Of a stretch of 64,000 nt of DNA, positions 17,972-64,000 are shown one piece after another. Positions within the stretch are counted from its first letter, which is position 1, and each line of letters starts with the position of its first letter. The notes under the pieces were generated by a model. That model did not search any database. It worked only from the letters and a program-made list of their open reading frames with translations, and was not told where the DNA came from. This DNA comes from Paraphysoderma sedebokerense (lineage: Eukaryota > Blastocladiomycota > Physodermatomycetes > Physodermatales > Physodermataceae). The position numbers and the translations under genes were made by a program. The stretch covers positions 19,719-83,718 of the forward strand of contig JAHLJZ010000099.1 of assembly GCA_025602915.1 (NCBI GenBank), read 5' to 3'.

Positions 17972-19606
17972 TCAAATACGCACGTCAAATATTTTGACAC
18001 GATTCCTCAACGCATCATGCGTATTCACAAAAGCAGATAAAGTTGAAATCGACAAATTATCATCGCAATGAATTAAGATTTCAGGACCCTTCTTCCATTT
18101 GGTAAACAAACATCGATTCAATCGTTCCAAAAAAACCTCTTCCGGCAGATTCAAATGTAATCCTCTATATTCATGCGCGAAATGCTCTACCACAATTCGT
18201 CCTTGGTAACTTGTTTTTGAGACGGCAGCCAAAAATTCGTCAGAGACAACGGAGTCCCTGGGTAACATTATTGATTTGAGTGATTTTGTATGATTCAAAA
18301 AGCGTAGAAATATCGAGCTTGAAGATACATCAGTAGTCCATGTTTTAAATTTTTGTAATGTAGGATGACCAGACAACCTGGTCACCAGATAATCCAAGTG
18401 ACCTATTGGATAATCCAAGTAACTGATTTTGGCGCTTACTTCGATTTCCTTTAAATTGACGTTATTGGCTAAACTTAGCACTACGTCAGCAAAGTTTTTG
18501 GGTGGCTCATATATTGAAAGAGACTCCAAGTGGGTTGCTATCTCTGCTAGCGCGGGGTAACTGACTTTATGAAAGCCATGAAATGATAACCTTGATAAAC
18601 CAGGGATGGATTTGAGCAATATATGAAGAGCTTCATTTGATAAATTGTCAATGTAAAATAAACCAAGATTTCTTAACTCCAGATTTCTAAGCACATGAGA
18701 GGGGCTGCTATCGTCGGAATTAAAATCGAAATTTGCAAGTTCTAATTTTTGAAGCGATCCCCCGTTTAACAGTAACATATTCCATAAATCGAATGTCATA
18801 ATTTGATGATTGGTATTGTGAAGACTTTTTTCCGCTCCCATATAAAACTCTTTCATGTTTGGAAACTTTTTCAGAAAAAATAGTAAACCGGATGTATCAC
18901 TGGTTCCATGGGCATCCAGTATAATCGAGTCTAACCGAACGTTGATTGCATTACATGACGGAAAGTTCGCACCAACTAAATAACATTGCACAAAAAGTTG
19001 GAAATCAAGATATGGTAGTCGTAGGTATTTTAATTTCTTCAAAGGCATGATTTTGCGGGACAGAAGAATAGCAATGCTCTCCAACACGCTACGAGTCATC
19101 CCACTTGAATTAATTGGAACCCAACTTTGAATATCAAGCAGCTGCAAATTAGGAAATTCGTATTCGTATAAAAAGTCATAAATAGCAGTTGTATATTCTA
19201 CTTTCATTTCAGTTATAATTCTTTGAAAATATTGCATATCGGATTGAATGAGTTTTGCCATAATTTTGACTGTTGCAGTTTCAGCTTTACGATTGCGTAA
19301 AACTATTCTTGACTGCCAAATAGAATACGCAATTGCGTGATAACGTTTCGAAACAAGCATCCATGAATAAAGCGAGTTCTTGTCGAGGTAGCGAAATATC
19401 AATTCGAGTAATTCATTCGGGAGTTGGGTTAGGATATGCCAGCGACTCTTTTCTGAGGCCTTGGATGCCCTTTAAAAATCCAGAGAAATAAAATGGAGGT
19501 AAGTAGAAGATTAGACTTGACTATACTTCTAAAATACAATCTTGAAAATTTCAACCGACTTGGAGAAGAATAATCGGCTGACGGACAGCCTGTTAGTCGC
19601 ATTCAT
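17972..19606 (-). CDS. F-box protein with degenerate leucine-rich region (copy 1)
   Basis: Two exons (19606-19539 and 19469-17972) give 521 residues. The F-box starts near residue 30: ILTQLPNELLELIFRYLDKN followed by SWMLVSKRYHAIAYSIW, a standard F-box pattern. The rest has irregular leucine-rich repeats (LKYLRLPYLDF, LQKLELANFDFN, LSRLSFHGFH, LKEIEVSAKI). It probably serves as a substrate receptor in an SCF ubiquitin ligase; the target is unknown. It has the same layout and 5' exon structure as the next gene, but the two are clearly diverged. The short first exon rests only on phase and on similarity to its neighbour. Confidence 0.7.
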
Positions 19607-20077: not shown

Positions 20078-21659
20078 TTAATATTTGTCCGCGACGAGGT
20101 CGAAAGAATTTTTCCAATCGCGGTTATCTACAATAAATCGACGATCATACAGAATCTGAACTCGTTCCTTCAAAACTGGGAACTTTCTAAATATGTCTCT
20201 TAATTTGTCGGCAGAATTTTTGTTGTCACATAGTACTTTAGTCTTTGGCACAGGTAATCCTATGTTCATACTTGCATGAGCCAACATCTTTAAGAATCTG
20301 TCTTCGCGGGATCCATTTGGTCGTAAAAAATCGGATGCGTTATGGTTAACACAGAGTTCTCCCTTATATTTTGATTTCACTATCCCATTGAAGAAATTGG
20401 CACTGACGTTGTAATCTTGCACTAGGCATACTTGCTTGATTGAATCCGTTAAATTAAAAAAGCGGAAAAAAGAGACCTCAGCAGCATCTGTTGACCAAAA
20501 TACAATCTTTTCTAAAATTGGGTGAGCAGTGAGAGATTCTAATAGTATGTTCAGGCGTGTTGCGCCGATTTCTATGTGCCTAAGATTAATGCTTGAACTT
20601 AATGTTGCTGCGATTTCGGTGAAATTTTCTATTTGATCGAAACATGCAAACTTTTCGAGTTGACCCACAGTATGATTCAAACTATGATACGTCCGGTCGG
20701 CTGCCAAACCAAACATTGTCAATTTGGAGAGTGCCGGTAGCGTTGCAAAAATCGCACTAAGGTTATAATCAGTACATCCTCCGAATATTTTCAATTCTTC
20801 AATAAGGAAGTTTTGATAAGGTGCAGCTTCATTTGGCAAAATTTCATTGAGATCGAAATTCAGTAACGCGATCCGACGTAAGTTTCGGGTCATCAGTACT
20901 TCCGTCCACATTTCAATAGACATCACAGCGGTACCGAGCCATGTCCTCCCACCAAGCAGAATATTATTTAGTAATTCACATTTTGATAGGAACAATTTGA
21001 GTTGATGCGAGTCACCTAGCACGACTTGATCGAATCGCAAGGTTCGCAAGGAAGATAAAGAAAAATTATGTAAATTTTCAGCCGATATCGCTCGAAAATC
21101 AAAGTAAGGAAATTCTAGGTGCTTTAATCGCTGAATTTTGGGTAACATATTGAGAATGTATGTGCTACAATCATGACATCCTTCTTCAAAGTCTGAAGCA
21201 CTCGTTGGGTCAACTGAAAATGATATTTGCATCATCTCTAAATTCACAAAGTTCACTTCTTTGAAAATGCACCAGTCTTGAGGCCTTATAATTAATTTCA
21301 AATTGCAGAACCGATGGCTATTCGAAAGCAATTCGTTAATTGTAGCCACGAATTTGTTGCTGTGTTCGAAGTAATCTCGAGGGAGAGGATTGATCACAAT
21401 ATCGGACCACCAAAGCGGAGTGGCAATGTTTCGCAAACGTCGTGAACTATTTTTGCAAGCTTGAAGAGAGCGGAGATCCAAGTACGTTAAAATTTGGCCG
21501 AGTATTTCGTTTGGTAGGTTGTGCAGTTTACAGTTATCATTCCATTTGTCCCTTGACCCGCTGTAAAGCCTGCATAAACATATTAACCAACAAGAAATAA
21601 AGTAGGAGAATAATATATATTGCTTACCGAGGGAAGAAAAATTTTTTCAACTGCTGCAT
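20078..21659 (-). CDS. F-box protein with degenerate leucine-rich region (copy 2)
   Basis: Two exons (21659-21628 and 21569-20078) give 507 residues. It begins MQQLKKFFFPRLYSG and has an F-box at LHNLPNEILGQILTYLDLRS, followed by an LRR-like region (LKHLEFPYFDFRA, LRRIALLNFDLN, LSKLTMFGL). It is a paralogue of the upstream F-box gene with the same intron position before the F-box. Its 5' end and upstream region are duplicated at 24021-24655, where the copy is broken. Probable SCF substrate receptor with unknown target. Confidence 0.7.
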
Positions 21660-22252
21660 GCTTTTTCTGTAATTGATGCTCACAAATATGTCTTTGGATT
21701 CTATGAGTGGTGTAGTGGCGTGTCCCCATCCTGGCGAAAGACAATAATGCTAATCAACATGTTAACCCTTGATTTAGCCCAATACTTGCAGAAAGCGTAA
21801 TGCACAATTATGGGAATCATAAGCACTTGTTATGAAGTTTGTTAACCGCAACCGTAGTGATGGACGATCTGAATCCACTGCTGTATAACTAATGTTATGC
21901 TATTGGCCCACGCTCAATTACATGGGGATATTGACCAGAACATAAACAAACTATTAATGGTTTTGTTGCCACAATAAACCTGGTGGTTGTGACTGCTCCA
22001 ATGACGGATTGAATGCAGTAATTGGTTTATTGATTATTTAGGATTGTTTCGAGTCAATTTTGCTCGTCTGATTTCCGAGACTGGGCAGATTCCGAACAGA
22101 ACATTCGAACACCGCGGGTGCTCTTAAAGTCTGAATGAGTCGGCTGATAGGGTGGTTGCGATAAAGTCTCACATTTCTCCTCTGCTCTCAAAGCCGTTCC
22201 AGCGAAGTGTAGTCCAAAGTCTAGCATTCACATTTCATGGCTATACTGTCAA
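21660..22252. other. bidirectional intergenic region
   Basis: About 590 bp between the divergent F-box copy 2 (-) and membrane protein copy 1 (+). It should hold both promoters. It is part of the duplicated block; no gene of its own was seen. Confidence 0.45.
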
Positions 22253-23853
22253 ATGAGCGTAAAAACGTACGAATTTCTTTGTTCTTGTGCTTCTTCAAGC
22301 CCCAGCTCTAAAACCGACCACACCAGGCCAACCAACGATATTGTCGCATATGGACAGGCATTTTTATTTCGGCACTGATTATCGCATGTCTGTTGATGAT
22401 TGTTCATAATGTTAAGCCGTTGCTGGTTCAAGACCTATCAATTCTGCAGAACGAGATAGCTAAATGGGAAACCGGAAAAGCTAAATTGGAACAATCGACA
22501 TGGACGGCAACTGTAAATATTCAAGATAAGTCAACGTCTAATGTTACTGCAACGCTTCAACAGCAGCTTTCCAAGAGCAACTCCGAGGGTTGGGTTTGTA
22601 CATTTGTATGGTTCTTTCTATTTTCAAGCAACGGTGAACTAAATGTACCAAATGCCTTAACAGTCTGAAATACTCTATCGCACGCAAAATGCGGATAAAA
22701 CAATTCCTAATTTCGGTTATCAACGACAAGAAGGACAGATCTTGTTAAATGAAAGTGATTTTGAGCGGGGCAGGAATGTTGACGAATTGGTTGTCGTTAA
22801 CTTGACCTGGTCAGTTGGAAATGGCGCTTCATCCTCTCAAACAGTTCAGGTTCCGTACAAGATCGTACAGACCAGAGATAGGGCATCACTCGGCTGCGGT
22901 ACAACAGCTCAATGATTATGGCGTGCGTATATTCATATTGTTACTTCACTCATCTTCTTTGAAATAGTAAAGTAATAATGTCATTTATCCGTTTAGGATG
23001 CACCGATTCTCATGCCATTCGAGCTTATTATCGCGGCGCCTGGAATGATGTGAAAGGGTTATGCACTTATACCTACTATCTTGGGTATATTTGTCTGAAA
23101 GCTGCCTTCGTGGACGGCAATTATGTCTTGTAAGTATTTCTAGATTTGCAGGATTTCCACGTAAATCTAATATCTTCGTCCTTTCCCAGTAATCCGAGCG
23201 ACATAAGTTGTTTCAACAACATGCCCACTAAAATTGATTCTTTGGACTGTAAAAATTTTGATACTGAGCTTGCGAAACTGTCCTACATCCAGGCGGCTTC
23301 AAACATACCAGGATATTATCGCACTTCTCAAAAAAATCTGACTGTTGAAGTCAAGGACTCAACTGATCCTATCATTTGGGTTGAAAAGGAGACGAAAGGA
23401 ACCTTTAAAATTTCGTTTCAAGGAGCCAGGGTATGTTTTCTGTACAACTTAATCTGGTGTTTCTGCGAAACAGCTTACGAAATAGTTTTCTCTTCAACAC
23501 AGTCTCCTGTTTTTATATCTAGTGTGGTATTCTTCTCACTTGCTGGTGTTTCTGCGTTTATGATTTTATTTTACCGAAGAAAAGTTATTTCCTCGAGAGC
23601 AGATGAAAGGTAAGTGAAGATTAATTTATCTTTTAATGTAAACGCATGCGGAATAACTTACAATGAAATCGTCTGTAGTGTTTGGCCCTACGGTCGATCG
23701 AACACGTACGTCTCTTTCGAACATCCTAAGTCTACTCATGTGATGCCAATATTAATTCTTCTTTATAGGTCTAGCACCGGAATACAACAACACAACCCGC
23801 CCCCACCGTATTCCCTGCAAGCGCCACCTTCTGCACCTCCATTGTATTCATAG
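22253..23853 (+). CDS. unrecognised two-pass membrane protein with PPPY/PSAP tail (copy 1)
   Basis: Proposed exons: 22253-22258, 22327-22593, 22664-22898, 22997-23129, 23190-23430, 23503-23609, 23769-23853; about 357 residues. From exon 2 on, phases agree and the same exons exist in copy 2. Layout: signal anchor (GIFISALIIACLLMIV), an extracytosolic domain of about 260 residues with several N-glycosylation sites and scattered Cys, a second membrane helix (FISSVVFFSLAGVSAFMILF), and a short cytosolic tail. The tail contains PPPPYS and PPSAPPLYS, that is PPxY motifs for Nedd4/Rsp5 WW domains and a PSAP motif of the ESCRT-I type. The 5' end is uncertain: copy 2's ATG is lost here, and the ATG at 22253 spliced through GTAAAA is only one option. 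Family and ligand unknown. Confidence 0.6.
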
Positions 23854-24705
23854 TAGATCTACTTATTTAATACACAAAACTGATATTGTACATTAATAAC
23901 TGGGTATTGTTAATATATATAATCATCGAGAGCTTATAAATTGGTTGGCACATATTCTTTGTGCTGATAATCAGTTTCGAATTGCAGCACTGATCACTAT
24001 TCGAATACATATCAGTAATTGTGAAGTATTTCTGCAAGCTTGAAGAGAGCGAAGATGTAGTACGTTTAAAGTTAAACAAGTATTTCATTTGGTAGATTGT
24101 GCAGTATACAGTTATCATTCCATTGGTCCCTTGACCGCTGTGGACCCTGCATAAAAATATGAACTAGCAATAATCAAAGTAAGTGGGCAACATATATTTG
24201 CTTACCGAGAGAATGACATTTTTTCAACTGCGGCATGCTTTTTGTATGTTGATACTCATATATATGCCTTTGGGTTCCACAAGTGGCCAGGAGTGTCCCC
24301 ATCCAGCTGGTGAAAGACAATAATGCTAATAAACATGTTAACCCTTAATTTAACACAATACTTGCAGAAAGCGTAGTGCACAATTATGGAAATTATAAGC
24401 ACATGCTATCATGTGTGTTAACCGCAACCGTAGTATTGGAAGATATGCCACTGCCGTTGTATAACTAATTAAAGCTAGCGGCCCCGCACCAAATTACATG
24501 GAGATATCAGAGCATAAAGAAACTATAAATAGTTTTGTTGCCACAATAAAATAGGTGTTTGTGCCTGCTCCGATATTGAATTGAATGCAGTAATTGGTTA
24601 ATTGATTATTTAGATTTGTTTCAAGTTAATTTTGCTCATGTGATTCCGAGACTTGTTTGAGTCTGGTCCGTTTTGCGGCAGTTGCGCACAAAAGCGTCCA
24701 GCTTA
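23854..24705. other. intergenic region containing the duplicated F-box upstream sequence
   Basis: 23854-24020 is the downstream region of membrane protein copy 1. 24021-24655 is a diverged copy of 21450-22085. The remaining 50 bp up to the insertion at 24706 has no match in the left copy of the duplication. No intact gene. Confidence 0.6.
24021..24260 (-). pseudogene. broken 5' fragment of F-box copy 2
   Basis: This matches 21450-21690, including GCAAGCTTGAAGAGAGCG, the intron, and a first exon now starting ATG CCG CAG TTG. Small indels disrupt the frame: the exon 1 end reads CTCG before GTAAGC where the intact gene has CCTCG, and the F-box segment carries further changes. The rest of the gene is absent. 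It is a by-product of the segmental duplication, not a functional gene. Confidence 0.7.
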
Positions 24706-27649: not shown

Positions 27650-29540
27650 ACTGGGCAGAATTGAGAATTCCGAACAGAATATTCGAACAGCGCGGGTTCT
27701 TAAAAACTGAATAAGTCTACTAATAATATGGATGCAATAAACATTCCAATTTTCCCTCTGCTCACAAAGCCTTTACAGCGAAGTGTAGTCCTAAGCCTAG
27801 TGTTAACATTTTTCGGCAATATTGCCAATTCAAATTGAGCGCGAAATGGTATGGATTTCTCACTTCTTCTGCGTTTTGGGACATCGGCTTAAATATCGAC
27901 CACACCAGGCCAACCAACGATGCCGTCGATTAACGGGATGCATCTTTATTACGGCACTGATTATCGCCTGTCTGTTGATGACTGTTCATAACGTTAGGCC
28001 ATTGCTGGTTCAAGACCTATCAATTCTGCAGAACGAGATAGCTAAATGGGAAACAGGAAAAGTGAAATTGGAACAATCGACATGGACGGCAATTGTAAAT
28101 ATTCAAGATAAGTCAACATCCAATGTTACCGCAACGTTTCAACAACAGCTTGCTAAGAGCAACTCCGAGGGTTGGGTTTGTATATTTGTATGGTGTTTTC
28201 TATTTTCAAGTAACGGTGAACTAATGTACCAAATGTCTGTACAGTCTGAAATCCTCTATCGCACGCAGAATGAGGATAAAACAATTCCTAATTTCGGTTA
28301 TCAACGACAAGAAGGACAGATCTTGTTAAATGAAAGTGATTTTGAGCGGGGCAGGAATGTTGACGAATTGGTTGTCGTTAACTTGACCTGGTCAGTTGGA
28401 AATGGCGCTTCATCCTCTCAAACAGTTCAGGTTCCGTACAAGATCGTACAGACCAGAGATAGGGCATCACTCGGCTGCGGTACAACAGCTCAATGATTAT
28501 GGCGTGCGTATATTCATATTGTTACTTCACTCATCTTCTTTGAAATAGTAAAGTAATAATGTCATTTATCCGTTTAGGATGCACCGATTCTCATGCCATT
28601 CGAGCTTATTATCGCGGCGCCTGGAATGATGTGAAAGGGTTATGCACTTATACCTACTATCTTGGGTATATTTGTCTGCAAGCTGTCTTCGTGGACGGCA
28701 ATTATGTCTTGTAAGTATTTCTAGATTTCCCGGATTTCCACGTAAATCGAATATCTTCGTCCTTTCCCAGAAATCCGAGCGACATAAGTTGTTTCAATAA
28801 CATGCGCACTAAAATTGGTTCCTTGGATAATAAAGATTATGATACCGGGCTATCGGTGCTGTCCTACGTCCAGACGGGTTCAAACGTACCGGGATATTAT
28901 TGGACTTTTCAAAGAAATCTGACTGTTGAAGTCAAGGACTCAACTGATCCCATCATTTGGGTTGAAAAGGAAACGAAGGGAACCTTTAAAATTTTGTTTC
29001 AAGGAGCCAGGGTATATTTTCTGTACAGATGTCTCTTAGAGTACTGTTGAAACCGCTTACGAAATAAGTTTTTTCTTCAACGTAGTCACCTGTTTTTATA
29101 TCTAATGTGGTATTATTCTCACTTGCTGGCGTTTCTGCATTTATGGATTATTGCCGGAAAAAAGTTATTTCCTCGAGAGCAGATGAAAGGTAAGTGAAGA
29201 TTTATTTACCTGTAAATACAGACGCCTGTGGGATAACTTACAATGACCTCGTCTGCAGTGTTTCGCCCAATGTTCCATCGTTCACGTACGTCACTCTCGA
29301 ATATCTTAAGTCTAATGAAGTGATTCAAATAATAATTCTATTCTGTAGATCCAATATCGGAATACAGCAACACAACCCCCCACCCCCGCCGTATTCTCTT
29401 CAAGCGCCACCTTCTGCACCTCCGTTGTACTCACTGTAGACTACTTGTTTATTTGCTGTTGACAAAATTTATATAGTACATTAAAAACTGGTGATTGTAT
29501 ATATATATAAATTCGTCACTGAGAGTTAACAGATCGGTTG
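27650..29540. repeat. segmental duplication, right copy (second part)
   Basis: This matches about 22070-23950, beginning near ATTCCGAACAGAA and running past the membrane-gene stop to a shared TATATATAA-rich 3' region. Together with 24021-24655 it is the second copy of the 21450-23950 block. Confidence 0.7.
27846..29439 (+). CDS. unrecognised two-pass membrane protein with PPPY/PSAP tail (copy 2)
   Basis: Exons: 27846-28175, 28245-28479, 28578-28710, 28771-29011, 29086-29189, 29349-29439; about 377 residues. If GTATGG after the ATG acts as a donor to the acceptor before 27909, the start is spliced as in copy 1 and the protein is about 357 residues. It is a paralogue of 22253-23853 with the same exon borders. 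Features: signal anchor (CIFITALIIACLLMTV), glycosylation-rich ectodomain, second hydrophobic segment (FISNVVLFSLAGVSAFM), and a tail with PPPPPYS and PPSAPPLYSL. The second helix has lost one codon and is followed at once by DYCRKK, so it may be a weaker membrane segment. Middle exons are almost identical between copies while the ends differ, suggesting gene conversion or selection. Function unknown. Confidence 0.65.
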
Positions 29541-30499
29541 GCTCATATTCATTGTGTGATTCTTCTGTGTTCTACAAAAGAATGCCCAGGCGGGCCACTG
29601 CTGCATTCCAACCGTTAAATAGCAGACAACATAAACATATTAGCCCCGTAGTATTGTAGCGACTCGATACACTGCATTTGCTGAGTAAGTCATATCAGCA
29701 TTACTGTAAACGAATGCTGTTCTGCTGTTCAACTGTATCGTTGTCGCTTCATCCACAACCTTGACACGACCCAAAACGTTTTTGCTTAATTTGAACACTG
29801 CGAACTATGCAAATTCGGATACCTCCAGTGAAACCTATTTTCCACTTCATTTCTTCGTTATGTCTCTTATCCATCGTCTTTTCGTTTGCATCCCTGGATA
29901 TAGGACTATTTAATGTTTTCGGTTTGAGTGAATTCGGCAACTCTGTAGCCCCACCTTCGATTTTCGCCAGCGTTAATAACAAATTAACGACGTTTTTTTC
30001 ATCTTTATTGAGACCATCTTCTATTGAATTTATGAAATGTGTAAATTATGCAGCTCCCGGTCGAAATTTTATTTCCATTGAAAGTTACTGGGAACTATTA
30101 CGTATTTATTCATTATCCGTTTATCATCTTGGAAGAACATGTATACCCATGCTCGCTGTGTGTATTGCGAGCATTTATGTTCCGACAATGATCTTATGAA
30201 TCTCTGATGATATGATACATATTATTGAAACTACACTAGCGGGGCCAAACCCGAACTGATGCCATATCTCATGACAAGACAATTTTAACAGAAGCATGTA
30301 TATAACCTTCAACTAAAATTCGATATTACAGCTTTATTTGTACAACATACTTGCATACTTCTGCACGTTTCAATAGTAAAATAAACATTGCATGACAAGC
30401 CTGACAACCCGAGTTCAGCAATAAAATGAAATAGTGGTATCAGTTCGGGGGCTTCTTGGTCCACCTTCCCTATTCCCTCCTTATGATTTGTCAGTTACT
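29440..30499. other. intergenic region with an unassigned ORF at 29807-30199
   Basis: The first 100 bp is the tail of the duplication. An open frame at 29807-30199 (+), 130 codons starting MQIRIPPVKPIF, has a hydrophobic N-terminal stretch (FISSLCLLSIVFSF) and a second hydrophobic patch at its end. It could be a small secreted or membrane protein, or chance. No homology is recognised and no splice partner is clear. The rest is AT-rich. Confidence 0.3.
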
Positions 30500-30757: not shown

Positions 30758-31269
30758 CGATATTTATAAGCAAAACAAAGTTAACAAAACAAGCCGACTT
30801 GATATCTAAGGAAGATGGTTCGTCAAACATTCTGTCCAAATTTGTTGATTTCCTTATCTAATGTTCTCAACAGTATTTTTACCGTCTATACCAGACATTT
30901 GCATTAGAATCATGTTATCCAGCGGATAACTCTGCCCGCTAGTGCTACAGTCGTTACCCAACGGTACGATCTGGACTGAATGGACAGATTCACTCTTTGC
31001 AGAAAATGGATATTCGCAATGACATTATTACAGTGTATTGATGGGATATTGTACATTGAGAAACTATATGCGATGGAGTTTTTACACTCGAGATCAAGTT
31101 TATTTATCTTTTGCCGTTTCCCGACGTCGGATGAGAGAAAGAGCACAATTGGATCGAAACGAGAAATGGCGGCACACTGTCGGGACCCGAAAGGACGAAA
31201 AAGCATTTACGTTGGTTTGTTAATAAGCTTAATATTCTAAAGTAAAGAGAAAAAAAATATAAAAAGAAG
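30758..31269. other. intergenic region between SOM1 and tRNA-Lys
   Basis: About 510 bp. Overlapping short frames at 30980-31240 (+) have some charged composition, including RRRMRERAQLDRNEKW. No start, intron pattern or family makes a gene call safe. T-runs next to 31270 are the tRNA terminator. Confidence 0.3.
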
Positions 31270-31342
31270 CGCCCAATGTGGGGCTCGAACCCACGACATT
31301 GCGGTTAAGAGCCGCACACTCTACCGACTGAGTTAACCGGGC
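31270..31342 (-). tRNA. tRNA-Lys (anticodon CTT)
   Basis: A 73-nt cloverleaf on the minus strand. Acceptor stem GCCCGGT pairs with ATTGGGC, anticodon arm TGCGG-CTCTTAA-CCGCA, T-loop TTCGAGC, discriminator G. There is no intron. Two T-runs just downstream in the direction of transcription (plus-strand A-runs at about 31248-31266) fit RNA polymerase III termination. It is identical to the gene at 40777-40849. Confidence 0.96.
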
Positions 31343-38970: not shown

Positions 38971-39012
38971 CTAATCAGGAACGCACACTCTAATTGAAGT
39001 AGTATTCAATTT

Positions 39013-40383
39013 ATGCCTCACGATAGCTACATTTGCCCGCTGATCACGACAAAATTTGTAGACATCTTACCATACATCGCCAGGTACCTTGCGTCCAACG
39101 ATCTGAAGGAATTGTCGCTTACGCACAGCGCTTTTCTAAATATTGCGAGACGCTGGCTTTTCCGCACTACAGCTGTTGAAAATGTGTATCTCAAGCAGTT
39201 ATACGAAAACAAAAATATGCTAGGCTTTGTCAAGAAGCTGACCTTCATGGGAGGAGGTGACTGGATTGGTGACTTGGAAGAACTTTTACCAAATCTGTCA
39301 TATCTAGCCTATTCACATTTTCCGAAAGCATTATCGATTTTGAGAGTGACGGTGCCTTATTTGAGGGTGTTTGAATGTATTCAGGTCCCGATCAATTTCC
39401 CGGAATTTTTAGAGCTTCCGGGAACTCTGGAAAAGCTTACATTGGAAATGTGTAGTCTGACCGAGTTGCCGATTCTGCGGGGCAATATTAGAGTCTTGAA
39501 ATGCTCTTTTAATTCCCTTGACTTCTTACCGGAATTGCCGTCAACTTTAGAAGAACTTGATTGTTCGTACAACAGTATCTCGATTATACGCAGATTACCG
39601 AAATCACTCAAGGCTCTGAATTGTTCTTCAAACCTCATGCAATCACTTCCTTCTCTGCCGTCCTCATTAAAAGTCCTTAAAATGCACCATTGTTTCTCCA
39701 TCAAAACTTTAACGGGCTTATGTTCGTCTCTTGAGACCCTCGATTGTGCATATTGTGATATATCCGGAATTCCAGAGAAATTACAGAATCTTCAGTGTCT
39801 CGATTGCTCTCATAACAGCGGCTTAACTTTTCTCCCGAGATTTCCAAACACTCTTGTCAAACTCAACTCTAGTAATTGTGCTCTGTCATCTCTGCCAGAT
39901 CTTCCATCGTCGCTACAAATCTTAGAATGCAGAAATAACAGTCTTGGGTCGCTTCCCGAGTTACCTCCTCACCTTCAAAGGATGAATATTGAAGGTAATA
40001 AACCATAACAATTCCTTATTGGGTACCCAATAATGTACTGACTCTCCTTAGGAAACCGGATACAAACGCTTCCGCAGTTCCCTGAATCGGTTACGTCTAT
40101 AGTTGTTGCAAGGAATCGCGTGTCCTTTCTTCCATCCCTCCCTGCGTCATTGAAGCACCTTGATTGTCGTGACAACCGTATACATTTTCTGCCTGAGCTT
40201 CCTAATACGCTTTATCACCTTGACTGCTGTTACAATGAACTTCAGGATCTTCCGGTTCTACCAGACTCTCTGTCGCTGCTTGATTGTAGTTATAACGAAC
40301 TTAGGCGTTTACCAGTATCGGTTAAGGATGTGGAAGATTTTCGATGTGAGGGAAATACGATGCTAGAAGAGCAATCTACATAA
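39013..40383 (+). CDS. F-box-like protein with bacterial-type (LPxLP) leucine-rich repeats, LRR-A
   Basis: Two exons (39013-39994, 40052-40383) give 437 residues. The N-terminal 50 residues look like an F-box: FVDILPYIARYLASNDLKEL, then LTHSAFLNIARRWLF. From about residue 130 come roughly 20-residue repeats with consensus LPxLPxSLxxLDCSxNxL, for example LPELPSTLEELDCSYNSI and LPSLPASLKHLDCRDNRI. This is the short LRR type best known from IpaH, SspH and YopM effectors (SMART LRR_BAC), not the longer animal or plant types. No NEL E3 domain is present. Inferred role: SCF substrate receptor. The same architecture occurs at 40965-42260 and 60240-61811. Confidence 0.75.
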
Positions 40384-40776
40384 GGGGAGACTTGGCAATT
40401 GTTAAATGAGATTTCTTTGAGGACTCGGAGCGATATGAAGTGTTTGGGTATCTCATTGAGATCGGGAGTATTTCTTTCAACCCAACAAAATTCTATTGCG
40501 TATCTTCTCCATGAAATCCGTTGGTTCATGTGAGGGAGCCCAGTTTATACTGAGCTGTTCGGTTCTGCTGAGAACCGCATCATAGCAAAGATGAAGTATG
40601 CTTAATGTTGGTATAATTTTGGGGATAAATGCCGTGACGCCGAATGTATAAATTTAGGCATCTTGCGAAAGAGAGGACTGTGATGACACAAATATAGTTG
40701 TTATGCGGATAATACAAACTGAAGTCATTAATGAAGTATAAGAATATATGTTTACCAGCGTCGTTTTCGTCGCCAA
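40384..40776. other. region between LRR-A and tRNA-Lys
   Basis: About 390 bp, AT-rich, containing the 3' region of LRR-A. No gene or repeat was seen. Confidence 0.4.
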
Positions 40777-40849
40777 GCCCGGTTAACTCAGTCGGTAGAG
40801 TGTGCGGCTCTTAACCGCAATGTCGTGGGTTCGAGCCCCACATTGGGCG
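40777..40849 (+). tRNA. tRNA-Lys (anticodon CTT)
   Basis: 73 nt, identical to the minus-strand gene at 31270-31342. Acceptor, D, anticodon (CTCTTAA loop) and T arms are all intact, and there is no intron. A run of eight or so T residues follows within a few bases as terminator. It lies between two convergent LPxLP-LRR genes. Confidence 0.97.
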
Positions 40850-40964: not shown

Positions 40965-42260
40965 TCATGACAATACATCCATTGCCAAAGAATTGGACGA
41001 ATCTTGATGACCCGACAAGTTAAGTGGATTATTGTAATAATCTATATTTACAACTGATTCAGGTATTTCCGGTAAAAAAACGATATTATTATCACTGCAA
41101 ATCAACCTCTTAAGCGAAGTGGGCAAAATAGGAAGATGAGTCAAGGCATTTCCTCGACAATTCAAACTCCGGAGTGAATTCGGTAACCGCGGAAGGGAAA
41201 TCAGGTCACACTGAATACATGATAAAGTGCTCAATGAATCTGGAAGAGGAGGGAGCTCAAAAAATGTACATTGTTGACAGTATAACAGGATGAGTGAGGT
41301 TGGCAGGTCAGGTAATCGGTCCCAGAACGAGCAATACAATTTTTTCAATGATGGCGGCAGGACAGAAGGGGGAAGTAAAGATGAGCAACCTATACAATTG
41401 AGTATTTCTAGTGACTTCGGAAGCCCTGGAAGAGATTGAAGCCTTTCACTACTGATACAATAAAGCACCTTCAAATTCGGAGGCAAAGATGGTAATGTGA
41501 AGAAATTGGTGCAATTTAAATTTAGCTCCTTCAGGGATGGCGGCAATAGTGAGATTTGAGAGAGACTTTTGCAGCCGCTTAAATTGAGGTATTGTAACTT
41601 TTGTGGTAACGCTGGTAAGACTCTTAATGACCAATTATCAGAGCAATCAAGACGTTGTAGACCATCAGGAAGGGAGGGTAACGTCGTTATTTCATTGATC
41701 CGGCATGTAAGACTGCGCAATGATTGCGGAAAGCGAAAAAATCTTTTGAGACCATTGCCTTCACAATGCAAAGACGTCAAATTATCTGGCAGTGATGGCA
41801 AAGTTTCAAAAGGCGAGTTAATTAGGCTTAATTCTGTTAATGTCTCTGGTAAATCTTGAAATTGTATTCTTGATGACTGAAATTCAAATCTACTCAAATA
41901 TTTCAGCAACTGCAAATCAACTCCCGAACAATCCGTGAAATCAAGTAATATCAACTTTTGAATATTTGGAATTCTCATCACCAACTGTTGTGTGTCGCGA
42001 GTAAACTCGTCAAACCCTTCCATTCCGCGAAGACCTAATGTATGAATATACCGAATCATCACACTTTTACATATGTCAGGTAAATTAACGCAGGGAGTTG
42101 TAAATTCTCGGAATAAAGTAGCCCTAGACGGTTCGAGGAAAGTTTGGTGGGTCAGCGCAAAATTTTTCAAGTCATTTTGGTTCATGAATGTCGCGACGAT
42201 GGGTAAAATGTCCGTAAACTCAGAACATATAATTCTAGTCGAATTCATATTAAATCCCAA
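40965..42260 (-). CDS. F-box-like protein with bacterial-type (LPxLP) leucine-rich repeats, LRR-B
   Basis: Single exon, 431 residues; a second ATG at 42248 could be the start. The F-box-like N-terminus (FTDILPIVATFMNQNDLKNF, then LTHQTFLEPSRATLF) aligns with LRR-A. At least twelve short repeats follow, such as LPSLPDGLQRLDCSDNWSL, LPPLPDSLSTLSCIQCDL and LPRLPNSLRSLNCRGNAL. It points towards LRR-A with the tRNA-Lys between them and looks like an old inverted duplicate. Unlike LRR-A it has no intron in the repeat region. Probable ubiquitin-ligase substrate receptor; target unknown. Confidence 0.75.
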   Translation of the reverse strand: MGFNMNSTRIICSEFTDILPIVATFMNQNDLKNFALTHQTFLEPSRATLFREFTTPCVNLPDICKSVMIRYIHTLGLRGMEGFDEFTRDTQQLVMRIPNIQKLILLDFTDCSGVDLQLLKYLSRFEFQSSRIQFQDLPETLTELSLINSPFETLPSLPDNLTSLHCEGNGLKRFFRFPQSLRSLTCRINEITTLPSLPDGLQRLDCSDNWSLRVLPALPQKLQYLNLSGCKSLSQISLLPPSLKELNLNCTNFFTLPSLPPNLKVLYCISSERLQSLPGLPKSLEILNCIGCSSLLPPSVLPPSLKKLYCSFWDRLPDLPTSLILLYCQQCTFFELPPLPDSLSTLSCIQCDLISLPRLPNSLRSLNCRGNALTHLPILPTSLKRLICSDNNIVFLPEIPESVVNIDYYNNPLNLSGHQDSSNSLAMDVLS

Positions 42261-43323
42261 TATTTATATGGTCCTCGCATAATTCTGTACTGGGTGCTAT
42301 CATACGATATTTTACAACTATGCCCTGAAGTCAGAAGCATTTCAACCAATTGGGCCCAGCTGGTCATAAGCTCACTGATGCGACCGAAATCGCTACTCAA
42401 ACGCCATTAAAGCAGCCGCTGTTACTCCTCTCCTTCGCTTCGTTCATGACAATGAATGATGTGATGATTTCACGTCTTTGAGGAGAGTTTGGGAATCATA
42501 TACAATAATTTGTTGCAAGTTTGGTCAAACTGTGACGACGAGGATGGACGCTGACCACGTAACATATACTTTGATTTGGAAGGCCTAAATCACCTGAAGG
42601 CTAAATGTGGCCAACTCATGTCTCTTATCGCTCACACATAGAAACAGCTTATACAAGATCTAATAGAATAAAACTGTCTAAAACACTCTCTGGATAAAGA
42701 GTCAAGCTATTCCTCCCGGTATCAGACCTATGCCAGAGTCATATATATTGTGAAAGTCAATGCTGTAGCTCAGGCTTCCAATTATACCCAGTAACTTATC
42801 ATGGAGACTCCTAATGGTCGTTTCTGGTATATCTCAACCTCTATTGAGGTACGCATTGAAGCAATTCTCACAGTATTACCATGCCTCGCGGGATATCTTT
42901 CTCAACTCTTAATGCATTCTGGGTTCAACCGAAGTCACTTGGAGGGTCACAATCTCAAGATGTGATTTTGATCAGGTTACCCGCCAATGTCTCGAGAAGA
43001 CAGCCATGGTACACGGAATTTTCGACAAATTGGTGGAGAACCTGGTCAAGATGACATGATGGGAAAGCGAAAGCTCCAAGACAAATTATGTAGCAATAAG
43101 CGATCATTGGGACTTAAATCAGCAATACAGCAAAAGGAAAGTCGCAATAAGAGTGAATTATTTAATATTCTAATAATGTTTGCGTGGCATTCTCGGATGA
43201 GAATCAGTTCATGTGCGCCAAGGCCTCTCAAAAGATCGACACTTTGTGATTCTGACAACATTCCTGTACTCATCACAACGATATACACTCTGAGCCATAT
43301 CTATACCAAATATTGCTGAAAAG
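42261..43323. other. 1-kb region between LRR-B and centrin
   Basis: It should hold the promoters of the divergent LRR-B (-) and CDC31 (+). Opposing open frames at 42987-43319 (+) and 43046-43288 (-) overlap each other; neither shows a domain, codon signature or splice pattern strong enough to call. Confidence 0.35.
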
Positions 43324-59497: not shown

Positions 59498-59570
59498 CGC
59501 CCAATGTGGGGCTCCAACCCACGACATTGCGGTTAAGAGCCGCACACTCTACCGACTGAGTTAACCGGGC
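59498..59570 (-). pseudogene. tRNA-Lys(CTT) pseudogene
   Basis: 73 nt, identical to the other two tRNA-Lys genes except that the T-loop reads TTGGAGC instead of TTCGAGC. This replaces invariant C56, which pairs with G19 in the tRNA elbow. No T-run follows within about 30 nt in the direction of transcription, so a normal RNA polymerase III terminator is missing. The intact acceptor and anticodon arms show it decayed recently. It lies 6 bp from the left end of the tandem duplication. Confidence 0.75.
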
Positions 59571-59808
59571 TTGGCGGGCTTCCATGGCATGTTTATTGAT
59601 ATTCAAAACCTTCAATTGATTATAAAATCAACTAGGAACGATGAGAAAGGTGCTCTCCAACTAAATCTCTAACCGACCCCAAAACTTTATTCGGACAAAG
59701 TCTTAGTGGTGAATTATTGAATGTACTCACACAGTCCAACAACTCTAGCTTTTGTTTCGTTTCCGCTATTCAATATGATGGAAGTGACAAATTTCAAAAC
59801 ACGTGACT

Positions 59809-59904
59809 GCTCTAGTGGCGCAATGGTTAGCGCGTTTGGCTGTTATTAATAACTGTATAAATACTGTTACCAAAAGGTTGGTGGTTCGAGTCCACCCTGG
59901 AGCG
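59809..59904 (+). tRNA. tRNA-Asn (anticodon GTT) with 23-nt intron
   Basis: 96 nt with the same mature sequence as the gene at 35462-35561. The anticodon arm is TTTGG-CTGTTA, then an AT-rich 23-nt intron, then A-CCAAA. A run of seven or more Ts follows at about 59908. Acceptor and T arms are intact. Confidence 0.94.
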
Positions 59905-60239
59905 ATTCTTTTTTTGCATTCAATTCAGAATAACATCCGATTTTGCAAGGATGAATGAATTTTTAATTATATAGTAGAAGGAGCTGAATGATGTTCTAAG
60001 TTCCGGGCACCGTTGTCAAGTTAAGTATGAAACTCAGTATTCATATATATGGGTCAAATCGTTTTTCAGATTTTCGTCGTCATAGCCGTGGATTCAGCTC
60101 TCATGGAGCGGGAAAGGTATTGCTTTCTAAAACGCGTGACTATAATTTAACACGATTACATTAACAAATCCGCTGATATATCCGAACCCTCTTTACAGAT
60201 ATTTCTATCAAAATACTAAGCAGTTCATAAGATATAAGT
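59905..60239. other. region between tRNA-Asn and LRR-C
   Basis: 335 bp that should hold the promoter of LRR-C. It is repeated exactly at 62117-62451. No other feature. Confidence 0.5.
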
Positions 60240-61811
60240 ATGACTGATAGCTATGTTTCGTCTTCTATTTTCGATTACCCCGATGTATTGCACCACCTTA
60301 CAGTGTACCTGTCAGTGACCGATCTCAAAAGCTTGTCTCTGACACAATCGAGCGTCACGGATCCCTGTCAACAAAGAATATATCAAAGGGTTTCGATAGA
60401 CCAAAGAAATGCAGAGAAATTATGCAAAAGTCGTCTGGCGATAAGTGTTGTCTCATTGACCGTGCTTTTTAGTCACGAGGAAAATGATACTTTAAGTATA
60501 TCTGATCAGGATTACTGGTGTAATTTACATAATCTTCAAAACTTGACTATTAGAAATGAAACCATCGATGCGAAATATTTGATAATCTCCTTTGAATCAT
60601 TTCAAACTTTACTATCATTTCATGGATTTTCTATTCGGATTGTATTTTCTGGGGGTTTACCTTCGACATTGAAAGATATGGCAATCGATGGATGTCAAGT
60701 CAAGAATTTACCGTCATTATCAGGGGGTTGGCAGTCGCAAGCGTGGGAGGAGAGCTATAGCTCGAAATCGCTACCCATATTACCGGATTCGCTCACCTCG
60801 CTTGTCATTTCGAACAGTCGATTAACGTCTCTTCCAGACCCCCTTCCGCCGTCACTATCGCATTTAGATTGTAGAGATAATTACCTCGAAGTTCTTCCAA
60901 AGTCGCTTCCTCCCCGGTTACTACACCTCAATTGCTCCGGGAATCAGTTGTCCTCTATTCCACGGCTCCCTCAATCGCTTAGTGAGCTTATCTGTAAGGA
61001 TAATAATCTCACTTCACTCCCCAACAATGAGTCAACCGAGTTGCCTTCGCATCAAACCGCTCTACCGACGGGATTGAAAACATTAGTATGCTCAAATAAC
61101 AAATTGACTTCTCTTCCATGTAATTTGCCACCAGGATTATTGCACTTAAATTGCAGCTGGAATGAGTTATCGTCGATCCCGCAACTTCCATTCTCCCTTA
61201 ATGAGTTTATATGTGACCGCAACCAGCTTCATTCGCTTCCATTTTTACCGGAATCTTTGACTAGTCTTTCATGTGCTTTTAATTGTATCACGGAATTACT
61301 TCGGCCTCCAAAATGTCTACCAATAGCGTTGAAAGAACTGGATTGCTCAGGTAACCAACTCACATATCTTCCAAGTGCTCTTCCCCCAGGGTTAGTATCG
61401 CTCCATTGCGCTTCGAATAAATTGCCGTCAATTCCGCCACTCCCATCATTATTAGTTGACTTAATATGTGACGATAACCAACTTCAATCACTTCCTGCTT
61501 TACCACAATCATTAACGAAGCTTTCATGCAACCAGAATCAACTGGCGGATTTTTTCTCAGCCTCAAACGTTTTACCGCAATCACTTAACATTTTCCTTTG
61601 TCCAAACAATCAAATTAAATCGCTTCCGACGCTTCCGGGAAAATTACAATATTTCAATTGTTCGGAAAATCAAATTTCGTCAATCCCACAACTCCCGGCA
61701 ACTTTGAAATTCCTTAATTGTCAGAACAATCGACTCCAGAGCCTGCCTTCCTTACCCAAATCATTGACCTCTCTCAATTGTAACGGGAGGCTTCCATGGC
61801 ATGTTTATTGA
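60240..61811 (+). CDS. F-box-like protein with bacterial-type (LPxLP) LRRs, LRR-C (3' end replaced)
   Basis: Single exon, 523 residues. The N-terminus resembles LRR-A and LRR-B (YPDVLHHLTVYLSVTDLKSL, LTQSSVTD), an F-box-like pattern. At least fourteen short repeats follow, e.g. LPPSLSHLDCRDNYLEVLP, LPPGLLHLNCSWNELSSIP and LPATLKFLNCQNNRLQSLP. The last seven residues, RLPWHVY, are read across the junction at 61788/61789 into the start of the second repeat unit, in DNA that is non-coding in unit 1. The original C-terminus is therefore missing. It may still act as a substrate receptor, but capping of the LRR is probably altered. Confidence 0.75.
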   Translation: MTDSYVSSSIFDYPDVLHHLTVYLSVTDLKSLSLTQSSVTDPCQQRIYQRVSIDQRNAEKLCKSRLAISVVSLTVLFSHEENDTLSISDQDYWCNLHNLQNLTIRNETIDAKYLIISFESFQTLLSFHGFSIRIVFSGGLPSTLKDMAIDGCQVKNLPSLSGGWQSQAWEESYSSKSLPILPDSLTSLVISNSRLTSLPDPLPPSLSHLDCRDNYLEVLPKSLPPRLLHLNCSGNQLSSIPRLPQSLSELICKDNNLTSLPNNESTELPSHQTALPTGLKTLVCSNNKLTSLPCNLPPGLLHLNCSWNELSSIPQLPFSLNEFICDRNQLHSLPFLPESLTSLSCAFNCITELLRPPKCLPIALKELDCSGNQLTYLPSALPPGLVSLHCASNKLPSIPPLPSLLVDLICDDNQLQSLPALPQSLTKLSCNQNQLADFFSASNVLPQSLNIFLCPNNQIKSLPTLPGKLQYFNCSENQISSIPQLPATLKFLNCQNNRLQSLPSLPKSLTSLNCNGRLPWHVY

Positions 61812-62020
61812 TATTCAAAACCTTCAATTGATTATAAAATCAACTAGGAACGATGAGAAAGGTGCTCTCCAACTAAATCTCTAACCGACCCCAAAACTTT
61901 ATTCGGACAAAGTCTTAGTGGTGAATTATTGAATGTACTCACACAGTCCAACAACTCTAGCTTTTGTTTCGTTTCCGCTATTCAATATGATGGAAGTGAC
62001 AAATTTCAAAACACGTGACT

Positions 62021-62116
62021 GCTCTAGTGGCGCAATGGTTAGCGCGTTTGGCTGTTATTAATAACTGTATAAATACTGTTACCAAAAGGTTGGTGGTTCG
62101 AGTCCACCCTGGAGCG
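62021..62116 (+). tRNA. tRNA-Asn (anticodon GTT) with 23-nt intron, duplicate
   Basis: An exact copy of 59809-59904, 2,212 bp further on, including the intron and T-run terminator. It should be functional if the duplication is real. Confidence 0.92.
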
Positions 62117-62451
62117 ATTCTTTTTTTGCATTCAATTCAGAATAACATCCGATTTTGCAAGGATGAATGAATTTTTAATTATATAGTAGAAGGAGCTGAA
62201 TGATGTTCTAAGTTCCGGGCACCGTTGTCAAGTTAAGTATGAAACTCAGTATTCATATATATGGGTCAAATCGTTTTTCAGATTTTCGTCGTCATAGCCG
62301 TGGATTCAGCTCTCATGGAGCGGGAAAGGTATTGCTTTCTAAAACGCGTGACTATAATTTAACACGATTACATTAACAAATCCGCTGATATATCCGAACC
62401 CTCTTTACAGATATTTCTATCAAAATACTAAGCAGTTCATAAGATATAAGT
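62117..62451. other. region between duplicate tRNA-Asn and LRR-C copy
   Basis: 335 bp identical to 59905-60239; carries the duplicated promoter region. Confidence 0.5.
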
Positions 62452-64000
62452 ATGACTGATAGCTATGTTTCGTCTTCTATTTTCGATTACCCCGATGTAT
62501 TGCACCACCTTACAGTGTACCTGTCAGTGACCGATCTCAAAAGCTTGTCTCTGACACAATCGAGCGTCACGGATCCCTGTCAACAAAGAATATATCAAAG
62601 GGTTTCGATAGACCAAAGAAATGCAGAGAAATTATGCAAAAGTCGTCTGGCGATAAGTGTTGTCTCATTGACCGTGCTTTTTAGTCACGAGGAAAATGAT
62701 ACTTTAAGTATATCTGATCAGGATTACTGGTGTAATTTACATAATCTTCAAAACTTGACTATTAGAAATGAAACCATCGATGCGAAATATTTGATAATCT
62801 CCTTTGAATCATTTCAAACTTTACTATCATTTCATGGATTTTCTATTCGGATTGTATTTTCTGGGGGTTTACCTTCGACATTGAAAGATATGGCAATCGA
62901 TGGATGTCAAGTCAAGAATTTACCGTCATTATCAGGGGGTTGGCAGTCGCAAGCGTGGGAGGAGAGCTATAGCTCGAAATCGCTACCCATATTACCGGAT
63001 TCGCTCACCTCGCTTGTCATTTCGAACAGTCGATTAACGTCTCTTCCAGACCCCCTTCCGCCGTCACTATCGCATTTAGATTGTAGAGATAATTACCTCG
63101 AAGTTCTTCCAAAGTCGCTTCCTCCCCGGTTACTACACCTCAATTGCTCCGGGAATCAGTTGTCCTCTATTCCACGGCTCCCTCAATCGCTTAGTGAGCT
63201 TATCTGTAAGGATAATAATCTCACTTCACTCCCCAACAATGAGTCAACCGAGTTGCCTTCGCATCAAACCGCTCTACCGACGGGATTGAAAACATTAGTA
63301 TGCTCAAATAACAAATTGACTTCTCTTCCATGTAATTTGCCACCAGGATTATTGCACTTAAATTGCAGCTGGAATGAGTTATCGTCGATCCCGCAACTTC
63401 CATTCTCCCTTAATGAGTTTATATGTGACCGCAACCAGCTTCATTCGCTTCCATTTTTACCGGAATCTTTGACTAGTCTTTCATGTGCTTTTAATTGTAT
63501 CACGGAATTACTTCGGCCTCCAAAATGTCTACCAATAGCGTTGAAAGAACTGGATTGCTCAGGTAACCAACTCACATATCTTCCAAGTGCTCTTCCCCCA
63601 GGGTTAGTATCGCTCCATTGCGCTTCGAATAAATTGCCGTCAATTCCGCCACTCCCATCATTATTAGTTGACTTAATATGTGACGATAACCAACTTCAAT
63701 CACTTCCTGCTTTACCACAATCATTAACGAAGCTTTCATGCAACCAGAATCAACTGGCGGATTTTTTCTCAGCCTCAAACGTTTTACCGCAATCACTTAA
63801 CATTTTCCTTTGTCCAAACAATCAAATTAAATCGCTTCCGACGCTTCCGGGAAAATTACAATATTTCAATTGTTCGGAAAATCAAATTTCGTCAATCCCA
63901 CAACTCCCGGCAACTTTGAAATTCCTTAATTGTCAGAACAATCGACTCCAGAGCCTGCCTTCCTTACCCAAATCATTGACCTCTCTCAATTGTAACGGGA
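62452..64000 (+). CDS. LRR-C second copy, partial at window end
   Basis: The frame is open from the ATG at 62452 to the window edge (516 codons), identical to LRR-C up to SLNCNG. If the sequence continues into the original gene, this copy may be the full-length one; if it continues into a third repeat unit, it ends like copy 1. Same F-box-like start and LPxLP repeats. Confidence 0.75.
   Translation, partial: MTDSYVSSSIFDYPDVLHHLTVYLSVTDLKSLSLTQSSVTDPCQQRIYQRVSIDQRNAEKLCKSRLAISVVSLTVLFSHEENDTLSISDQDYWCNLHNLQNLTIRNETIDAKYLIISFESFQTLLSFHGFSIRIVFSGGLPSTLKDMAIDGCQVKNLPSLSGGWQSQAWEESYSSKSLPILPDSLTSLVISNSRLTSLPDPLPPSLSHLDCRDNYLEVLPKSLPPRLLHLNCSGNQLSSIPRLPQSLSELICKDNNLTSLPNNESTELPSHQTALPTGLKTLVCSNNKLTSLPCNLPPGLLHLNCSWNELSSIPQLPFSLNEFICDRNQLHSLPFLPESLTSLSCAFNCITELLRPPKCLPIALKELDCSGNQLTYLPSALPPGLVSLHCASNKLPSIPPLPSLLVDLICDDNQLQSLPALPQSLTKLSCNQNQLADFFSASNVLPQSLNIFLCPNNQIKSLPTLPGKLQYFNCSENQISSIPQLPATLKFLNCQNNRLQSLPSLPKSLTSLNCNG

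Follow-up and report, generated by a model that had tools for sequence, protein, structure and literature searches.

False duplications in genome assemblies have been misread as gene gains, and one report on them puts 7 to 24% on the same scaffold in three previous assemblies (PMC9516828). The assembler SPAdes picked k values of 21 to 55 for the read sets of another study (PMC5481147). Here we consider a locus at the end of a contig from Paraphysoderma sedebokerense (Blastocladiomycota; assembly GCA_025602915.1, contig JAHLJZ010000099.1, C99 in the following). The window, by which we mean the whole stretch of 64,000 bases that was analysed, corresponds to C99:19719-83718 and closes with two identical head-to-tail units of 2212 bases, which carry a transfer RNA (tRNA) gene for asparagine and most of a leucine-rich repeat (LRR) gene. 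Our results suggest, with a probability that we would put at about 90%, that the assembly created this tandem duplication as an artefact.

The repeat and its junction are laid out as follows (window coordinates).

59577..61788, plus strand: unit 1, with a length of 2212 bases; copy that stands in its own left context, identical to C101:56-2267
61789..64000, plus strand: unit 2, an exact copy that runs to the contig end; probably piece E (C101:1-2267) without its initial 55 bases, duplicated by the assembly
61788..61789, no strand: junction of unit 1 and unit 2, without microhomology; probably a false join

A preliminary description of the sequence had claimed an exact tandem repeat of 2,212 bp, and direct comparison of window units 59577-61788 and 61789-64000 bears this out, with 0 of 2212 positions different. 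A chance origin of a repeat of 2212 bases is excluded. Identity between the units extends leftward beyond 59577/61789 by 0 bases, and in a second contig, C101, the base that follows the single unit there is not the first base of the unit. Since C99 is 83718 bases long and the window runs to position 83718, the second unit ends on the contig's last base. The repeat had also been said to end exactly at the window edge. This is correct, as 64000 is the last base of both unit 2 and C99, and a look at the sequence after 64000, which had been proposed as a check, finds that nothing follows, since C99 stops there.

The assembly that we searched comprises 27.3 Mb in 195 contigs, with 390 contig termini. 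Three full copies of the unit were found in it, two in C99 and one at C101:56-2267; seven other matches to the unit are short and lie at the tRNA-Asn part. Base for base, C101:1-2267 is the same as window 59522-61788 (2267 bases, zero mismatches). C99 reads left flank, unit, unit, contig end, and C101 reads 55 bases of the C99 left flank, one unit, and then sequence unlike C99. C101 carries a single unit joined to both flanks, but its left flank amounts to those 55 bases only. Among the three full copies found, a junction of unit to unit is formed by the C99 pair only. A short tandem repeat, (GGGACAACC)4, starts 39 bases past the unit end in C101.

The point at which C101 begins is connected to a repeat that lies directly to the left of unit 1, and the elements involved are these.

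59498..59570, minus strand: tRNA-Lys(CTT), a gene present in three near-identical copies in the window; belongs to the repeat where C101 starts
59516..59576, no strand: 61-base exact repeat; inverted match to window 40771-40831, around the tRNA-Lys at 40777-40849
59522..59576, plus strand: 55-mer V, the first 55 bases of C101; right-hand part of the 61-base repeat

The length of the unit can be read directly as the length of the piece that C99 and C101 share minus 55 (2267 - 55 = 2212). The 61-base repeat ends at 59576, and the tandem unit starts at the next base, 59577. The 55-mer V has three exact matches in the assembly, C99:60489-60543 (minus strand), C99:79240-79294 (plus strand) and C101:1-55, of which two sit at tRNA-Lys copies in C99 and the third is the start of C101. 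We built de Bruijn graphs of window 1-61788 for every k from 21 to 127, and the vertex at 59522 is out-branching for two values alone, k=50 and k=55. For k=50 the vertex arises through the third tRNA-Lys copy, and of the two values only 55 gives the unit start at 59577. The repeat boundary is, in other words, a graph vertex: the unit begins directly behind the 61-base exact repeat, and 59522-59576 is an out-branching 55-mer. If an edge is appended to itself with a fixed overlap of 55 bases, then the unit must start at 59577. For a real duplication there is no evident reason to start where the tRNA-Lys repeat ends. The three near-identical tRNA-Lys(CTT) genes all lie within 28 kb (window 31269-31342, 40777-40849 and 59498-59570).

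We can picture the origin of the second unit as follows. The locus itself would consist of the left flank, the tRNA-Lys, one unit (the tRNA-Asn and most of the LRR gene) and then the continuation seen in C101. At the 55-mer with which the tRNA-Lys repeat closes, a de Bruijn assembler would have broken the path, leaving an edge E of 2267 bases beginning with that 55-mer. One use of edge E would be in C101, where the path continues rightward, and two more at the close of C99. There the second E would have lost the 55 bases that normally overlap when it was appended, though E has no overlap with itself. C99 does end in a complete E and then an E that lacks its first 55 bases, where E is C101:1-2267. 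We infer that a SPAdes-type assembler was used, that one of its steps appended E twice, and that the cell holds a single copy.

Is the same 55-base signature present at other contig ends? We surveyed 81 of the 390 termini (60 starts and 21 ends; the start of C80 reads N). Terminal matches were sought among fetched stretches and for a few termini by whole-assembly search, so that the counts are lower bounds. At least three of the 60 starts have exactly 55 bases that are repeated elsewhere (C101, C98 and C75). C98 starts inside a tRNA-Arg gene; its exact match to the copy in C22 is 55 bases long and ends there, and the tRNA-Arg copies of C34 and C102 match the C98 start over 54 bases. Beyond this, C98:1-7478 is 100% identical to the terminal stretch of C34, C34:227563-235040 (an overlap that was compared base by base over its first 1038 and last 200 bases). 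No tandem copy was reported for this shared piece of 7478 bases. Contigs can therefore share a piece, one at its end and the other at its start, with no tandem copy being reported. In C75 the first 55 bases are found again at C75:9902-9956 (55 bases at 100%). A B-box-like motif suggests that this start may be a piece of a tRNA; ARAGORN finds no whole tRNA there.

Two longer overlap lengths turn up as well. The starts of C125 and C88 overlap, inverted, by exactly 99 bases, and the starts of C122 and C99 overlap, also inverted, by 77 bases with one mismatch. The ends of C106 and C92 share the same 77 bases. All three lengths, 55, 77 and 99, belong to the k ladder of SPAdes. The preliminary description had left the choice between a recent duplication and an assembly-graph repeat. 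Of these two, it is the assembly-graph option that the C101 flanks, the 55-base relation and its recurrence favour, and the description was right to treat an artefact as a serious option in view of the single unit in C101, the unit start after the tRNA-Lys repeat and the 55-base starts elsewhere.

Several observations weigh against an artefact. At the right-hand boundary we found no cause for C99 to stop at 61788. An exact search with the last 55-mer of the unit finds the three unit copies and no other, and the 200 bases around the unit end match nothing else in the assembly search. A repeat elsewhere in the genome was considered as the reason for an end at 61788, and neither the 55-mer nor the 200-base search found one. 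A graph built from the fetched sequence with one copy of the unit (the single-copy graph) has no branch at 61788 for any of ten values of k, and the tandem graph does branch there. An edge E that ends at 61788 needs such a branching point, which a real tandem copy would provide. The end of C34 likewise lies at a site without other copies, which means that such ends arise in this assembly without a tandem copy. The doubling of an edge inside one contig was seen in C99 only. For the start of C75, a whole-assembly search finds no overlap with another contig; we had predicted that it would duplicate another contig's tail, and this failed, so that the 55-base start alone was confirmed. The end stretches of C106 and C92 are 92% alike over 300 bases. 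Because their 77 bases lie inside this longer similar stretch they are weak evidence for k, and the length could be due to chance. Finally, terminal matches of other lengths exist: 107 bases at the C106 start, 3071 bases at the C95 start and 34 bases between the C76 start and the C102 end.

The repeats in C95 and C106 were not counted as further cases of artefact. C95:1-3071 equals C95:3595-6665, an exact direct repeat at the contig start, past which the sequences are still similar but have diverged, and C106:1-107 equals C106:3087-3193, with similarity that continues, with differences, beyond the exact stretch. Such diverged similarity beyond the exact part is what one sees in paralogues, and the C95 repeat may represent real paralogues with recent conversion.

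One could argue that the duplication is real and very recent, that the assembler failed after the second copy and that C101 skipped one. The identity of the units over 2212 bases is what a recent head-to-tail duplication would leave, and the tandem graph has a branching vertex that ends at 61788 and would explain the end of C99; the single-copy graph has none. Nevertheless, we consider this quite unlikely. The left breakpoint of the duplication would have to fall exactly where the tRNA-Lys repeat stops and, at the same time, lie 55 bases from where C101 starts. In C101, the 55 bases of left flank and the one unit lead into other sequence, and a second copy is absent. The junctions of real tandem duplications usually, though not obligatorily, carry microhomology or flanking homology. 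At this junction microhomology is 0 bases on either side, and blastn (E-value 1e-10) finds no similarity between the unit end and the repeat that precedes the unit. Recombination between repeats was rejected on the same two counts. A more elaborate version, in which a real duplication started from the edge of the tRNA-Lys repeat, took up the tRNA-Asn and most of the LRR gene and perhaps seeds a growing array, is in our view quite improbable too, if anything a little more so. If it were true, the seed of the array would lie in a genome that has several genes of the LRR and F-box types.

It is also conceivable that C101 and C99 represent two alleles or two nuclei, one with a single unit and the other with two units. 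The same unit does stand in different arrangements in the two contigs. Alleles would, however, have to agree at all of the 2267 bases that C99 and C101 have in common, where there are 0 differences, and they would require the same coincidence of breakpoints as a fixed duplication. This makes the explanation very improbable, and an assembly artefact remains the reading that we favour.

The genes of the unit are the following.

59808..59905, plus strand: tRNA-Asn(GTT) with a 23-base intron (ARAGORN, Rfam tRNA family)
60240..61811, plus strand: LRR gene cut by the junction; 523-amino-acid frame whose tail is out of frame

There is one tRNA-Asn per unit, and both copies match the Rfam tRNA family. 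ARAGORN labels the tRNA of the unit 'att' when run without introns; run with introns on the copy in unit 1, it reports a 75-base tRNA-Asn(GTT) with a 23-base intron. The LRR frame of unit 1 passes the junction and meets a stop a few codons on (523 amino acids), the frame of unit 2 is still open at the contig end (516 amino acids), and in C101 the frame is uninterrupted at 543 amino acids (L009:719-2350). The junction in C99 shifts the reading frame after unit 1. As for the gene content first ascribed to the units, the tRNA-Asn is indeed in both, and so is the LRR gene, but it is cut by the junction in one and by the contig end in the other. Among solved structures, the LRR protein (L009:719-2347) is matched best by YopM/IpaH-type LRR effectors from bacteria (best E-value 1.1e-55, query residues 169-513). 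On a eukaryotic contig this match probably reflects a shared repeat type.

LRR genes occur at three places in the window (38998-40005, 40968-42263 and 60240-61811), not counting the repeat copy in unit 2. The window also contains two F-box-like genes (17975-19471 and 20081-21646), genes of the PDS5 and PGAP1 types, and two pairs of diverged direct repeats: 22089-23968 and 27667-29560, which are 86.5% identical over 1902 bases, and 21442-22082 and 24021-24653, at 81% over 650 bases. The PDS5- and PGAP1-type genes, like the intron of the tRNA, are in keeping with a eukaryotic origin.

Taken at face value, the end of C99 would count as a recent duplication of a gene and a tRNA and would add a chimeric gene model of 523 amino acids. 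Cases of this kind are cheap to recognize: one compares the length of the unit with the overlaps of other contigs and looks for a repeat that ends one base before the unit. The duplicated contig end of C34 and C98 (7478 bases) could inflate gene counts as well.

How does the locus compare with artefacts that have been described? In the passages and beginnings of abstracts that we consulted, we found no description of an edge appended to itself, and one may still be in print. A close match is with the overlapping contig ends and repeat-resolution misassemblies of SPAdes-type de Bruijn assemblers; the terminal matches here include 55, 77 and 99 bases. The present case differs in that a whole piece was apparently appended to itself, and the assembler of this genome is one that we infer. 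For homotype false duplications, the causes named are heterozygosity and read errors (PMC9516828). In contrast to these, the copies at the end of C99 are without differences, and the cause looks like an edge of a k-mer graph that was used twice.
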